In this document: positions 50,169 to 54,938 of the stretch, piece by piece
How positions within the stretch are numbered: position 1 is the first letter of the stretch
Layout of the letters: each line of letters starts with the position of its first letter
Origin: Streptacidiphilus neutrinimicus
GTDB lineage: Bacteria > Actinomycetota > Actinomycetes > Streptomycetales > Streptomycetaceae
NCBI RefSeq assembly: GCF_000787815.1
Contig: NZ_BBPO01000019.1
Span: forward strand, 1-57,581
DNA length: 57,581 nucleotides
Reading direction: 5' to 3'
Notes under the pieces: generated by a model
Databases searched by the model: none
Told to the model about the DNA's origin: nothing
Seen by the model: only the letters and a program-made list of their open reading frames with translations
Made by a program: the position numbers and the translations under genes

Positions 50169-50897
50169 TCAGCCGATGTGACCGCCGATCAGGTGGCCGA
50201 GCAGGAAAGTCACACCCGCCGCGGCGCCGCCCAGCAGCAGCTGACGCAGACCGGAGAACCACCAGCTGCGCGCCGTCACCTTGCTGACCACCGCGCCGGC
50301 CGCGAAGAGGCCCACCGCCGCGATGCCCACCGCCGGGAGCAGGGAGGTCGCGCCGAGCAGGTAGGGCAGCAGCGGGAGCAGCGCGCCGAGCGCGAAGGCG
50401 GTGAAGGAGGAGACCGCCGCGACGAGCGGGGACGGCAGGTCGTCCGGGTCGATGCCCAGCTCCTCGCGGGCGTGCACCTCGAGGGCGCGCTCCGGGTCCG
50501 CGCTCAGCTGCTGGGCGACCTCGAAGGCCAGCTTCGGCTCGACGCCGCGCTCGACGTACAGCTGGGCCAGCTCGGCCAGCTCCTCCTGCGGGTTGCGCTC
50601 GAGCTCACGCCGCTCCAGCGCCAGCTCGGCCTGGACCATCTCGCCCTGCGAGGCGACCGAGGTGTACTCCCCCGCAGCCATGGAGAACGCGCCCGCCGCA
50701 AGCCCCGCGAGGCCCGTCAGCACGATCACGTTGTGGTTCGCGCTGCCGCCGACGACGCCGGACATGAGCGCGAAGTTGGACACCAGGCCGTCCATCGCTC
50801 CGAAGACCGCCGGGCGGAGCCAACCGCCGTTCACGTCGCGGTGGTCGTGCTTGTAGGCCTCGGCGGTCTCGGCTATGTCCTGGGCGCTCATCGTCAT
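50169..50897 (-). CDS. VIT1/CCC1-family transporter (iron/manganese)
   Basis: The protein has 242 residues with the five-helix VIT layout. TM1 follows RPAVFGAMDGLVSNFALMSG and TM2 is VIVLTGLAGLAAGAFSMAAGEYTSVASQ. The cytoplasmic metal-binding loop is rich in Glu (LALERRELERNPQEELAELA and VHAREELGIDPDD). Three further helices follow (about 150-242). VIT proteins move ferrous iron or manganese out of the cytoplasm. The start is uncertain: ATG at 50897 is used; ATG 50891 and GTG 50906 are alternatives. Two iron-box-like palindromes stand 46 and 86 bases upstream, suggesting control by a DtxR/IdeR/DmdR-type regulator. Confidence 0.88.
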   Translation of the reverse strand: MTMSAQDIAETAEAYKHDHRDVNGGWLRPAVFGAMDGLVSNFALMSGVVGGSANHNVIVLTGLAGLAAGAFSMAAGEYTSVASQGEMVQAELALERRELERNPQEELAELAQLYVERGVEPKLAFEVAQQLSADPERALEVHAREELGIDPDDLPSPLVAAVSSFTAFALGALLPLLPYLLGATSLLPAVGIAAVGLFAAGAVVSKVTARSWWFSGLRQLLLGGAAAGVTFLLGHLIGGHIG

Positions 50898-50942
50898 CGT
50901 GGTCACGCCCAGGAAGCTAACGCTTCCGGAGATTTGTTTCCA

Positions 50943-50961
50943 GCAAGGCAGGACTGCCTTA
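50943..50961. promoter_or_regulatory. Iron box 1 (DtxR/IdeR-like) upstream of the VIT gene
   Basis: On the minus strand TAAGGCAGTCCTGCCTTGC fits the 19-bp DtxR-family frame TWAGG...CCTWA, with perfect inner arms aaggcag/ctgcctt and a mismatch only at the outer end. It ends 46 bases before the chosen ATG. Confidence 0.5.
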
Positions 50962-50982
50962 CCAGTGCGCTGACCTGCGAAG

Positions 50983-51001
50983 TTAGGCATCCCTTGCCTA
51001 A
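50983..51001. promoter_or_regulatory. Iron box 2 (DtxR/IdeR-like) upstream of the VIT gene
   Basis: ttaggcatcccttgcctaa has perfect 7-bp arms and a 5-bp centre, the 19-bp geometry of the DtxR/IdeR/DmdR iron box (TTAGG...CCTAA). Its centre is 40 bp from that of box 1, about four helical turns. Confidence 0.65.
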
Positions 51002-51019: not shown

Positions 51020-51703
51020 CTACGCGGCGACCGCCTCGCCGAGCCGCCCGTCGACCATCTCCAGCACCCGGTCCGCCGTCGCGAGCTGGGCCTTGTCGTG
51101 GGTGACCATCACCGTCGCCGTGCCGTGCTCGCGGGTGATCCGCGCCAGCAGGCCGACGATCTGCTCGCCGCGTTCGTGGTCGAGGGCGGAGGTGGGCTCG
51201 TCGACCAGCAGCACCGACGGCTCGGCGAACAGCGCCCGCGCGATGTTGACCCGCTGGCGTTCGCCCCCGGACAGCTGGTGCGGGCGGCGGTGCTGCTTGC
51301 CGTCGCCGATCCCGACGGAGGCGAGCAGGCTCTCGGCCCGGGCGGCCACGGCGCGCGGCTTCTCGCCGCGCAGGTGGGCGACGGCCTGGAGCTGCTCCAC
51401 CGCCGTGAGCGAGGCCAGCAGGTTGGACTGTTGGAAGACGATCCCGATCCCGTCCCGCCGCAGCGCGGTGCGCTGCTTGTCGTTCAGCGTGGCGGCGTCC
51501 TGGCCGCCGATCAGGACGCGGCCCGAGTCCGGGGTCAGCAGGGTGGCGGCGACGGCCAGCAGGCTGGACTTCCCGGAGCCGGAGGGGCCGACCACGGCGG
51601 TGAACTCGCCGGGGGCGACCTCGAGGGTGACGCCGTCCAGCGCGGTCAGGCGCCGGTCCCCGTCGGGGTAGGTGAGGACGATGTCGGAGAGGACGAGGCT
51701 CAT
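51020..51703 (-). CDS. ABC transporter ATPase (MacB/LolD-type)
   Basis: The ATPase has 227 residues. Walker A is GPSGSGKSSLLA, the Q-loop is in IVFQQSNLLASLTAVEQL, the signature is LSGGERQRVNIARAL and Walker B is VLLVDEPTSALD, followed by VTHD. The pattern is that of the MacB/LolD/FtsE group, which drive mechanotransmission or export of peptides, lipids or drugs. The ATG at 51703 overlaps the stop of the permease gene by four bases (atga). It is the second gene of a unit divergent from the two-component system. Confidence 0.9.
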   Translation of the reverse strand: MSLVLSDIVLTYPDGDRRLTALDGVTLEVAPGEFTAVVGPSGSGKSSLLAVAATLLTPDSGRVLIGGQDAATLNDKQRTALRRDGIGIVFQQSNLLASLTAVEQLQAVAHLRGEKPRAVAARAESLLASVGIGDGKQHRRPHQLSGGERQRVNIARALFAEPSVLLVDEPTSALDHERGEQIVGLLARITREHGTATVMVTHDKAQLATADRVLEMVDGRLGEAVAA

Positions 51704-52773
51704 CGGTTGGCTCCCAGCGCGGTCAGCGGGTCGACGGAGGTGATGCGGCGCACGGCGAGGGCCGCGCCGCCGAGGCCCAGCAGGACCATGACGACGACGG
51801 GGACGGCGACCGTCGCCGCGCCGAGGGTGAACGGCATGCCGCTGCCGCCGAGCACCGCTCCGCCCGCGAGGCCGATCAGGGCGCCGGACAGCGCTCCCGC
51901 CGCCAGCATGGCCACGGCCTGGGCCAGCGCGTCGCGGATCAGGTAGCCGCTGGACGCGCCGACCGCCTTGAGCACCGCGATGTCCGCCTTGCGCTGCACC
52001 GTCCACACCGTGAAGAACGCCCCGACGACGAGCGCGCTGACGGCGAAGAGGAAGCCCTGGATCATCTGCAGGCTGCCCTGTTCGGCTGAGTACCCGTCGA
52101 TGCCGGCGAGGGCCGCGTCACGGGAGACCGTCTCGGTGTTCTGGGCCTTGTCCAGCGCGGCGAGGTCGGCGGAACCCGGGTCGACCGCAAGGGCGCCCGG
52201 CTGCTTGGCGCCGGTGGCCAGGGACCAGGTGTCGGGGGTGGTCCAGACGCTGGGCGCGTGGGCGTAGGAGCGGTCCGCGGTGATCGCCGAGACGGTCAGC
52301 GTCCGGCCGCCCACGGACACCTTGTCCCCGACGTGCAGCCCGCTGTCGTCCGCGACCTTCTGGCCGACCGCGACCTGCCCGGGCTGCGGGGCGGTGCCCG
52401 AGACGACGGGCGGCAGCAGATCCGCGGGCGCGCCGAACACGCTGACCGAGATGGCGCCGCTGCCGCCGGTGAGCCGGGACATGGCCACGCCGAAGGGCTC
52501 GACCTTGCCTATGCCGGGCGCGGCGGCGAAGGCCTGCTCCTGCTGGGGGGCGATCCCGCTGTTGCTGAACGACACCTCGGGAGCGGCGCCCTGTGGCGCG
52601 CCGAAGACGATGTCCTTCGCCGGCAGCTGCGCGATCGAGGAGGAGGCGGCCGAGGCGAGACCGCCGGTGAGGCCGTAGAGGAAGACCACGAGCGTGGTGA
52701 TGAGCGTGACGACCGCGCCCATCAGGGCGAAGCGCCCTTTGGCGAAGCGGATGTCACGCAGGGCGACGAACAC
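51700..52773 (-). CDS. FtsX-like ABC transporter permease
   Basis: The permease has 357 residues. TM1 (FALMGAVVTLITTLVVFLYGLTGG) precedes a large extracytoplasmic MacB-like periplasmic domain (about 45-230). Three helices follow: GFLFAVSALVVGAFFTVWTV, LAQAVAMLAAGALSGALIGL and AVPVVVMVLLGLGGAAL. The cytoplasmic loop QRKADIAVLKAVGASSGYL is the FtsX hallmark. The GTG at 52773 is behind ggagtcc. The divergent histidine kinase/regulator pair suggests an envelope-stress or antimicrobial-peptide response module. Confidence 0.9.
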   Translation of the reverse strand: MFVALRDIRFAKGRFALMGAVVTLITTLVVFLYGLTGGLASAASSSIAQLPAKDIVFGAPQGAAPEVSFSNSGIAPQQEQAFAAAPGIGKVEPFGVAMSRLTGGSGAISVSVFGAPADLLPPVVSGTAPQPGQVAVGQKVADDSGLHVGDKVSVGGRTLTVSAITADRSYAHAPSVWTTPDTWSLATGAKQPGALAVDPGSADLAALDKAQNTETVSRDAALAGIDGYSAEQGSLQMIQGFLFAVSALVVGAFFTVWTVQRKADIAVLKAVGASSGYLIRDALAQAVAMLAAGALSGALIGLAGGAVLGGSGMPFTLGAATVAVPVVVMVLLGLGGAALAVRRITSVDPLTALGANR

Positions 52774-52796
52774 GTGGGGACTCCTCGGAGGCGGTC

Positions 52797-52812
52797 GGAC
52801 GATCTGTCGTCC
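52797..52812. promoter_or_regulatory. Inverted repeat in the ABC/two-component divergent promoter region (1)
   Basis: ggacga-tctg-tcgtcc has perfect 6-bp arms, 24 bases upstream of the permease GTG. It could be an operator for the neighbouring LuxR-type regulator. Confidence 0.4.
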
Positions 52813-52865
52813 TCCACACTCGTCCGCGGAAGAGGGTGTTCCATCAGGGAGAGGATGGGTTCCGA

Positions 52866-52883
52866 ATCAACCGAAAGGTTGAT
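52866..52883. promoter_or_regulatory. Inverted repeat in the ABC/two-component divergent promoter region (2)
   Basis: atcaacc-gaaa-ggttgat has perfect 7-bp arms and lies 47 bases upstream of the kinase GTG. It differs in sequence from the repeat at 52797-52812. It may be an operator or a small leader hairpin. Confidence 0.45.
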
Positions 52884-52929
52884 GGCCCGACGGCGCCGGA
52901 CCTCGGCGCCGGGACGTAGGGTCGATGCC

Positions 52930-54297
52930 GTGACCAGCACTCTCCCCGCACAGCACGACCCGGCGCGGATGCCCGCGCTCCGGGTCATGCGGGTCGCGCT
53001 GCACGCCATGTTCTACGTCCTGCTGGTCATCGGCTGCGTGGGCGGCGGCGTCACGTCCTGGGTGCTCTGCGCGGCGCTGGGCGCCACGTACGCCTTCGGC
53101 GGCTTCTTCGCCCGGCCGGAGGCCACTCGGCGGGACGGCCTGCTCTGGCTGGCGGCCGTCACCGTCCTGTGGGTGGCCCTGGCGGCCGAGTCCCCGGGCG
53201 CCGGCTACGTGGCCTTCCCGCTCTACTTCCTCTACCTGCACCTGCTGCCGCCGCGCTGGTCGCTGCCCTCGGTCGCGCTGCTGACGGGCGTCGTCGTCGC
53301 GGCGCAGTCCACCACCTCCGGCGGGCTGACGGCGGCCAAGGTGATAGGGCCGTGCGCGGGCGCCGCGGTGGCGGTGCTCACGGCCTACGGCTACGCCGGC
53401 CTGTACCGCGAGAGCCGCCGTCGCCAGGCCCTGATCGACGACCTGGTCCGCACCCGGGACGAGCTGGCCGAGTCGCAGCGCGAGGCCGGTCGCCTCGCGG
53501 AGCGCGCCCGGCTGGCCCGGGAGATCCACGACACGCTCGCCCAGGGGCTCTCCTCGATCGTGCTGCTGGCCCGCTCGGCGGAGTCGGCGCTGCCCGCGGG
53601 GGCGGACGCCGCGGCCGAGCGGGTGCGCGAGATCGGCGCCACCGCCGGGGAGAACCTGACCGAGGCGCGCCGCTTCGTCGCCGCGCTGACGCCGCCGTCG
53701 CTCCAGGACGCCACGCTGCCCGAGGCGCTGCGCCGGGTCACCGCCGGCTGCGGGCCTGTCCCGCAGGTCGCCTTCCACCTCGACGGGGAGCCCTGTCCGC
53801 TGCCGGTGGAGGCCGAGGTGGCCCTGCTGCGCCTGACCCAGGAGGCGCTGGCGAACGTCCAGCGCCACGCCCGAGCCCAGCGGGCCGCGGTCACCCTCGC
53901 CTACCTCGACGACCAGGTGACGCTCGACGTCTTCGACGACGGCGTGGGCTTCGCCCCCGACGCGCCCGCGGGGGCCGCGGGCATCGCCGGCGCCGGGGGC
54001 CCGTCCGGCGGGCCGCGCTTCGGCCTGCACGGCATGCGGGAGCGGATCGCCGAGCTCGGCGGCACGCTCACCATCGAGTCCGCTCCGGGCGAGGGCACAG
54101 CCGTCGCCGCCGCCATCCCGCTGCACGGCCCGTCGGCCCCGGCCGCCGCTCCGACCCAGAGCACTCCCCCCGCGCAGGCCGCTCCCTCGGCGCAGGCGGC
54201 TCCCCCGGTGCGGGCCGCCGCCTCTGCCCAGGCCCCGACCACACCGGCGGCCGCGCCCGCGCCCGCCCGGCCCCACCCCGTGGAGCGCGCCTCGTGA
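52930..54297 (+). CDS. Sensor histidine kinase (HisKA_3 type)
   Basis: The kinase has 455 residues. Four to six short helices (about 20-155) form a membrane sensor without a large outer loop. A coiled linker leads to RLAREIHDTLAQGLSSIVLL with phospho-acceptor His200. The ATPase has LLRLTQEALANVQRHARAQR (N box), VFDDGVGF and GPRFGLHGMRERIAELGG (G2). The last ~50 residues are Pro/Ala/Gln-rich repeats (variants of TPPAQAAPSAQAAPP). The GTG at 52930 is chosen; an ATG at 52855 would extend it over the operator-like repeat. It overlaps the regulator gene by four bases. Confidence 0.9.
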   Translation: MTSTLPAQHDPARMPALRVMRVALHAMFYVLLVIGCVGGGVTSWVLCAALGATYAFGGFFARPEATRRDGLLWLAAVTVLWVALAAESPGAGYVAFPLYFLYLHLLPPRWSLPSVALLTGVVVAAQSTTSGGLTAAKVIGPCAGAAVAVLTAYGYAGLYRESRRRQALIDDLVRTRDELAESQREAGRLAERARLAREIHDTLAQGLSSIVLLARSAESALPAGADAAAERVREIGATAGENLTEARRFVAALTPPSLQDATLPEALRRVTAGCGPVPQVAFHLDGEPCPLPVEAEVALLRLTQEALANVQRHARAQRAAVTLAYLDDQVTLDVFDDGVGFAPDAPAGAAGIAGAGGPSGGPRFGLHGMRERIAELGGTLTIESAPGEGTAVAAAIPLHGPSAPAAAPTQSTPPAQAAPSAQAAPPVRAAASAQAPTTPAAAPAPARPHPVERAS

Positions 54298-54938
54298 TCA
54301 CCGTCGTCCTGGTCGACGACCACCCCGTGGTCCGGCGCGGCCTGCGCGCCCTGCTCGAGGAGCTGCCCGAGCTGCAGCCGGTCGGGGAGGCCGCCGACGG
54401 CGCCGAGGCGCTGCGGCTGCTGGAGCGGCGCGCGGCCGAGGGCAGCCCCCGCCCCGACGTGGTGCTGATGGACCTGCAGATGGGCTCCGGCATGCACGGC
54501 GTGGAGGCCACCCGCCGGATCACCGCGCTGCCCGACGCTCCGGCGGTGCTGATCCTCACCACCTACAGCACCGACGCGGACATCCTCTCCGCCGTCGAGG
54601 CCGGCGCGACGGGTTACCTGCTCAAGGACGCCCCGCCGGAGGAGCTCGCCTCGGCGATCCGCGCCGCTGCCAAGGGCGACACGGTGCTGGCGCCGCCGGT
54701 CGCGGCCCGGCTGCTGGGCCGCTCCCGGCCCGGGCGGCCGGTGCTGTCACCGCGCGAGCTGGAGATCCTGGAGCTGCTGGCCGAGGGCCTGCCCAACCGG
54801 CAGATCTCCAAGCGCCTGTTCATCAGCGAGGCCACGGTGAAGACCCACCTCGTGCACATCTACGACAAGTTGGGCGTCGACAGCCGCACCTCCGCGGTGG
54901 CCGCGGCCATGCAGACGGGGCTGATCCGGGCCCGGTAG
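54294..54938 (+). CDS. LuxR/NarL-family response regulator
   Basis: The protein has 214 residues. The receiver has VVLVDDHPVVRRGLRALLEE and phospho-acceptor Asp60 in DVVLMDLQMG, with Lys in YLLKDAPPEE. The C-terminal HTH is LSPRELEILELLAEGLPNRQ, then SEATVKTHLVHIYDKLGV. The GTG at 54294 overlaps the kinase stop (gtga). It is the cognate partner of the upstream kinase and probably controls the divergent ABC exporter. A hairpin terminator begins inside its last codons. Confidence 0.94.
   Translation: MITVVLVDDHPVVRRGLRALLEELPELQPVGEAADGAEALRLLERRAAEGSPRPDVVLMDLQMGSGMHGVEATRRITALPDAPAVLILTTYSTDADILSAVEAGATGYLLKDAPPEELASAIRAAAKGDTVLAPPVAARLLGRSRPGRPVLSPRELEILELLAEGLPNRQISKRLFISEATVKTHLVHIYDKLGVDSRTSAVAAAMQTGLIRAR

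Follow-up and report, generated by a model that had tools for sequence, protein, structure and literature searches.

Two inverted repeats are located upstream of a gene for a VIT-family transporter in Streptacidiphilus neutrinimicus, and they raise the question of whether an iron-responsive regulator acts at this promoter and, if so, with which sign. We analyzed the contig NZ_BBPO01000019.1 of this organism (57,581 nucleotides, hereafter the window) together with the remainder of the genome and with VIT loci from related organisms. A first-pass annotation of the same DNA had proposed that the transporter gene is induced by iron through DtxR/DmdR-type regulators bound at two upstream iron boxes, a distal one (Box 1) and a proximal one (Box 2). 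Sequence evidence and published precedents favor control of this kind as well as its positive sign, while only the distal box has the standard form. Overall, we consider it likely that iron-loaded DmdR1 activates the VIT gene from these sites, the main doubt being the occupancy of Box 2 by DmdR1 itself.

The transporter gene and its predicted promoter

The gene (positions 50169 to 50906, minus strand) encodes a CCC1/VIT1-type transporter, whose protein product matches PF01988 over its full length (positions 1-214 of 214, 235.1 bits) and the VIT1 structure 6iu3 in a phmmer search (E-value 7.5e-25). The conserved start codon is likely to be the GTG at 50904-50906, three codons upstream of the ATG at 50895-50897. 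Relative to an anchor sequence in the upstream region, CTTGCTGG, this GTG is found at +41 in all 14 Streptacidiphilus orthologues, and in 13 of them its reading frame is that of the matched coding stretch; the exception (L020) comes from a genome that is 76% complete. The distance of 46 to 104 bases between the boxes and the start codon that had been annotated earlier holds when counted from the ATG (50897), and becomes about 37 to 95 bases when counted from the likely GTG (50906).

A total of 94 upstream regions were compared; the genus supplied 14, and the other 80 were named-collection loci among the matches listed, three of which repeat genus members. The anchor was present in 89 of them and absent from L054, L072, L077, L094, and L100. 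A TANNNT motif, as expected of a -10 element, is present in all 89 anchored regions (three duplicate genomes included); its first base lies at +28 in 81 of them and at +29 in the other eight, and no other start was seen within +15 to +39. In the window, this predicted -10 element reads TAGCTT (50914-50919, minus strand) and lies seven bases before the GTG. A 17-bp spacer would place the -35 hexamer, by spacing arithmetic from the -10 element, at 50937-50942 on the minus strand; the window has TGGAAA at this position, with four of six matches to TTGACA (not a very poor hexamer), and the Streptomyces consensus there is TGGCGG, with two of six. A standard consensus sigma-70 scan of the region returned no promoter. 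The conserved -10 element, together with the GTG at +41, indicates that the transcript is probably leaderless and begins at the GTG (50906), with a predicted promoter of the form TANNNT-N7-GTG.

With this predicted start as the reference, the center of Box 2 lies at about -46.5 and that of Box 1 at about -86. Both boxes are upstream of the predicted promoter, and Box 2 abuts the -35 position. The arrangement corresponds to that of published DtxR-family activated promoters, with several sites upstream of the -35 position and one adjacent to it, the start itself being a prediction.

A standard distal box and a shortened proximal element

Box 1 (50983-51001, no strand assigned) reads TTAGGCA-TCCCT-TGCCTAA and is a perfect 7-5-7 palindrome, exactly as it had been annotated. 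Since such palindromes are common in the GC-rich window, which contains 31 perfect ones, symmetry alone is weak proof of an iron box. The window was scored with a DtxR matrix for which Table 2 of PMC1382209, with its 63 corynebacterial sites, supplied 61; the sites in this table are predicted ones, some of them described previously, and include a near-equal of Box 1, the predicted site CE1009 of Corynebacterium efficiens (TTAGGCATCCCTTGCCTCG, 17 of 19 positions identical). Box 1 was the best position in the whole window with 22.3 bits, compared with a median of 19.3 bits among the matrix input sites, and the next non-overlapping match reached 10.2 bits. By its similarity to TTAGGTTAGSCTAACCTAA, it belongs among the 19-bp iron boxes. 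In a pattern search with up to two mismatches allowed, it was the single occurrence of its pattern in the 8.4-Mb genome.

Box 2 departs from its initial description. What had been annotated as a 19-bp, 7-5-7 repeat at 50943-50961 has its true symmetric unit at 50944-50961 (minus strand; CAAGGCA-GGAC-TGCCTTA, 18 bp, 7-4-7, with one outer mismatch), and the centers of the two elements are 39.5 bp apart, close to the 40 bp first given. With a dyad one bp too short by comparison with TTAGGTTAGSCTAACCTAA, Box 2 does not exceed 3.3 bits and was rejected as a 19-bp iron box. The first-pass annotation had suggested a scan with a DmdR1/IdeR weight matrix as a check; the scan with the corynebacterial DtxR matrix is positive for Box 1 and negative for Box 2. 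A genome-wide pattern search recovered the exact 6-4-6 core of Box 2 a single time; two more places appear at one mismatch, and these were rejected as further genomic targets of the pattern, their loci nowhere exceeding 6.1 bits.

A finer description of such sites is available for IdeR of S. erythraea. In the excerpts of PMC8464063 used here, two dimers together occupy the 19-bp site, which is resolved into four CCTAA quintets, a 14-bp half-site (TTAGG-N4-CCTAA) is proposed for one dimer, and a minimal contact rule requires each quintet to have T at position 3 and C at either position 1 or position 2; in vitro, S. erythraea IdeR did not bind probes that satisfied this minimal rule alone. Box 2 reads as two overlapping 14-bp half-sites of this IdeR type on the minus strand, TAAGG-CAGT-CCTGC (50948-50961) and GCAGT-CCTG-CCTTG (50944-50957), offset by 4 bp rather than by 5. 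It shares with S. erythraea the 14-bp unit, which in that organism binds one dimer; it differs in that two units overlap with a 4-bp offset and in that their binding is predicted.

We applied the contact rule at every start from -60 to +35 relative to the anchor, the background rate being 535 of 46,800 random positions. In Streptacidiphilus, the rule holds at -14 and at -10 in all 14 orthologues, and the only other starts reaching three of 14 are -49 (12 orthologues), -45 (six), -44 (five), and +21 (four). The upstream regions of Streptomyces group A show the canonical 5-bp offset, with the rule holding at -15 in 35 of 38 and at -10 in 38 of 38, and carry a recognizable 19-bp box of up to 15.2 bits where Streptacidiphilus has Box 2. 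One half-site, at -14, is found throughout Streptomyces group B (34 of 34 regions, out of 72 anchored Streptomyces upstream regions), with a further occurrence of the rule at -29 in six. The commonest group B sequence scores about 5.5 bits on the matrix, and a stricter half-site pattern was present in nine of the 34 group B regions compared with 537 of 3,080 random 72-bp stretches. Judged by the contact rule, a single place next to the -35 position is occupied in three forms, namely canonical, compressed by one bp, and half.

Across the 14 orthologues, the eight contact positions of Box 2 are invariant and none of its five variable columns coincides with them (a simple post hoc count gives p of about 0.03), and the block from -12 to -7 is wholly invariant in Streptacidiphilus (12.0 of 12 bits). 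A tentative but reasonable interpretation is that Box 2 may be a compressed DmdR1 operator made of half-sites with a 4-bp offset, the same place being taken in Streptomyces relatives by the canonical 5-bp form or by a bare half-site. In addition, a weak half-site-like palindrome, GAAGCGTTAGCTTC, was observed on the predicted -10 element (50913-50926), where the contact rule holds in four of the 14 orthologues.

Conservation of the elements and the candidate regulator

A VIT orthologue was found in all 14 genus genomes searched (82-100% identical), and each of the 14 carries both elements, the distal site scoring 12.5 to 22.3 bits and the proximal site being recognized by the contact rule. The center of the distal box is at -45 from the anchor in seven of them, the window among these, and at -40 to -42 in the remaining seven; in five it is exactly at -40, which corresponds to a shift of one 5-bp repeat. 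Such conservation in 14 of 14 sequences means that the box pair is not a product of chance. The gene upstream of VIT encodes an ABC-transporter ATPase (51020-51703, minus strand; Pfam ABC_tran) and lies outside the conserved unit, adjoining VIT in five of the 14 loci and not in the other nine. Because both boxes are kept in all 14 loci although the ABC gene is adjacent in five, the boxes travel with VIT.

On a broader scale, a match of at least 10 bits upstream of VIT was present in 64 of the 94 Streptomycetaceae loci listed, some of these matches being boxes in the leader rather than the proximal site, compared with 3 of 1,557 random 350-bp stretches. Among 19 more distant VIT matches within the genus, loci were available for 16, and none of the 16 reached 10 bits (maximum 9.1). 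Two of five further genomes of the same family did reach 10 bits. Finally, outside the family, 79 genomes of the class gave a VIT match, and no box was detected in the 24 best-matching of these loci (L133-L156), all of which stayed below 8 bits. All these counts come from related genomes and are non-independent.

A separate set of DtxR-type boxes was observed in the leader, between the promoter and the VIT start codon, in 13 of the 80 named loci listed. They score 13.5 to 23.5 bits and are situated about 70-75 bases downstream of the anchor in ten anchored loci (L050, L051, L059, L061, L067, L080, L086, L089, L098, and L110), the other three loci being L072, L077, and L100. These leader boxes are possibly a second, repressor-type control. 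In Streptomyces group A (such as L059, L061, and L063), a conserved leader block of the GTTGTCGAAAAGTRGAA type was also seen downstream of the predicted -10 element, with a TCCAA motif after it.

With regard to the regulator, the genome encodes one DtxR-family protein above the Pfam cut-off for PF01325, and five weaker matches fall below this cut-off. The protein also carries PF02742 and PF18357, so that DNA-binding, metal-binding, and SH3 domains are all represented. The base-contact residues named in the part of PMC8464063 consulted (Ser37, Pro39, Thr40, and Gln43) are present when compared by eye, shifted by one position. Other iron boxes were searched for throughout the genome by patterns rather than with the matrix, which revealed further boxes of 21.5 to 30.7 bits and two more pattern matches scoring only 9.7 and 3.0 bits. 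The genes beside those boxes are what we take to be a siderophore-type binding-protein/permease pair, an ABC ATPase, an iron-type ABC binding protein, and a bfd-like gene. The last of these is preceded by an iron box of 23.2 bits (L127:2237-2255) and converges on a bacterioferritin-type gene. Bacterioferritin was considered as a co-activated gene and rejected, as the single PF00210 match lacks a box and the one at this locus lies before the bfd-like gene on the opposite strand.

Direction of control and alternative readings

The score of Box 1, the conservation of the elements with VIT, their position relative to the -10 and -35 elements, the presence of a DtxR-family protein, and the published precedents together favor positive control by DtxR/DmdR. 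What we infer, namely that DmdR1 binds, that control depends on iron and is activating, where the transcript starts, and that the protein transports and in which direction, may be put together as follows. At high levels of ferrous iron, DmdR1/IdeR, a regulator of the DtxR family, would be loaded with iron and would bind the distal 19-bp Box 1 as well as the proximal Box 2 next to the -35 position. The promoter being far from consensus, the bound DmdR1 could then help RNA polymerase to use it, whether through direct contact or through removal of a silencer, for instance Lsr2, and the VIT protein would export surplus Fe2+ (or Mn2+) from the cytoplasm.

Several known systems, for which we draw on excerpts of the cited papers, bear on this model. 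Induction of a VIT gene by iron and DtxR is already published for C. diphtheriae, where expression of the VIT1-family gene dip0116 is higher by 5.06 log2 units with iron and by 5.18 log2 units relative to a dtxR mutant (PMC13001254). According to the same source, a -35-adjacent site is sufficient for activation of ftn, and direct DtxR binding is described for ftn and not for dip0116. The present locus resembles ftn and dip0116 in its VIT-family target, its DtxR-family regulator, and its several upstream sites, one of them adjacent to -35 as for ftn; it differs in the 18-bp, 4-bp-offset form of the proximal site and in that regulation in Streptacidiphilus is predicted. The bfrB gene of M. tuberculosis has four boxes, one of which partly overlaps -35, and is activated by IdeR through relief of Lsr2 repression (PMC10317159); the multiple upstream boxes, one reaching -35 in bfrB, are the common feature, whereas bfrB is a ferritin gene and has four of them. 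DtxR sites upstream of -35 and leaderless transcripts are described for ftn and dps of C. glutamicum (PMC1382209), which are comparable to the locus studied here in both respects (the leaderless transcript being predicted in our case) and in a role in iron storage or protection, although the target genes are other than VIT. In B. subtilis, MntR activates the manganese exporter gene mneP from an array of low-affinity sites, the first of which overlaps -35 (PMC11275975). Dimers of this distant DtxR homologue on a site array and a metal exporter as the target are shared with the proposed system, while mneP differs in that the metal is manganese and that four 18-bp sites, one bp apart, bind one dimer each. 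Given that the layout upstream of VIT is the same as that of published activated promoters, DmdR1 most likely activates this gene.

Certain observations weigh against activation. They include the failure of Box 2 on the 19-bp matrix and the single half-site of group B, the lack of S. erythraea IdeR binding to probes that satisfy the minimal rule alone, the strong leader boxes in relatives and the weak half-site on the -10 element of the window, the other-family loci without a box, the three of five further family genomes below 10 bits, the four of six matches in the -35 hexamer of the window, and the five weak PF01325 matches. Some of them would suit an arrangement in which the distal box is a DmdR1 site, the proximal element either binds some other regulator or forms a special part of the promoter, and iron control is only partial. 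Besides the low matrix score of Box 2, such an arrangement would agree with the uniqueness of its exact pattern in the genome, with the full invariance of the block from -12 to -7, and with the fact that group B retains only a weak half-site at the proximal place. However, group A has a recognizable 19-bp box at this very place, and the contact positions of Box 2 are invariant in 14 of 14 with the variation lying elsewhere (the post hoc estimate given above), which makes such an arrangement unlikely, if deserving of attention. Repression of VIT by DmdR1, which might involve looping or cooperation with leader boxes like those of some relatives, is decidedly improbable. DtxR proteins mostly repress, and both the leader boxes and the weak half-site on the -10 element would be in line with a repressor; yet there is no strong box over the core promoter of the window, where the best other site scores 3.6 bits, and in PMC10317159 repressed genes are said generally to have one box on the -10 element or the start while activated genes tend toward several. 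Moreover, repression of an exporter by iron would make little physiological sense, and the VIT1-family gene of C. diphtheriae responds with the opposite sign (PMC13001254).

Both boxes can be folded as RNA hairpins, and the palindromes might accordingly terminate or process the transcript of the upstream ABC gene. No terminator-like site was found there, the predicted fold is ordinary (z of -1.11, with 30 of 200 shuffles folding equally well), and the boxes are present in the nine of the 14 loci in which another gene neighbors VIT in place of the ABC gene. In the other clade, furthermore, pairing of the outer seven positions of Box 1 falls to three to five pairs and the matrix score is still 12.5 to 21.8 bits. 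A hairpin or terminator was rejected on these grounds, and a role as RNA hairpins is very improbable. The abundance of perfect 7-5-7 palindromes in the window would also allow for functionless chance palindromes. These are scarcely credible, with retention in all 14 orthologues, a fixed spacing to the -10 element, and none of 16 paralogue loci at 10 bits.

Under activation by DmdR1, the locus would extend what is known in several ways. No report of a Streptomyces or other Streptomycetaceae VIT gene under iron control was found in the open-licence literature, and the available portion of the paper on the S. coelicolor DmdR1 regulon names no VIT gene. The 4-bp-offset geometry of Box 2 is possibly the new part. 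The role of IdeR half-sites is said to remain to be investigated (PMC10317159, PMC8464063), and activation by DtxR proteins is described as poorly understood (PMC13001254, PMC11275975); since natural VIT promoters across the Streptomycetaceae would offer three operator forms at the same fixed position, both half-site function and activation would become directly testable in harmless laboratory strains. If the proposed reading is true, VIT promoters would reveal an in vivo role of IdeR half-sites as weak -35-adjacent activator sites that work at high iron only, the proximal half-sites of Streptacidiphilus would be backed by a strong distal box, and the DmdR1 regulon would gain an iron-export arm.

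As for the surroundings of VIT in the window, the adjacent stretch from 51020 to 54938 contains the ABC ATPase gene and FtsX-like permease genes. After these genes, and still within the same stretch, an apparent sensor kinase and response regulator were recognized by eye on the opposite strand.
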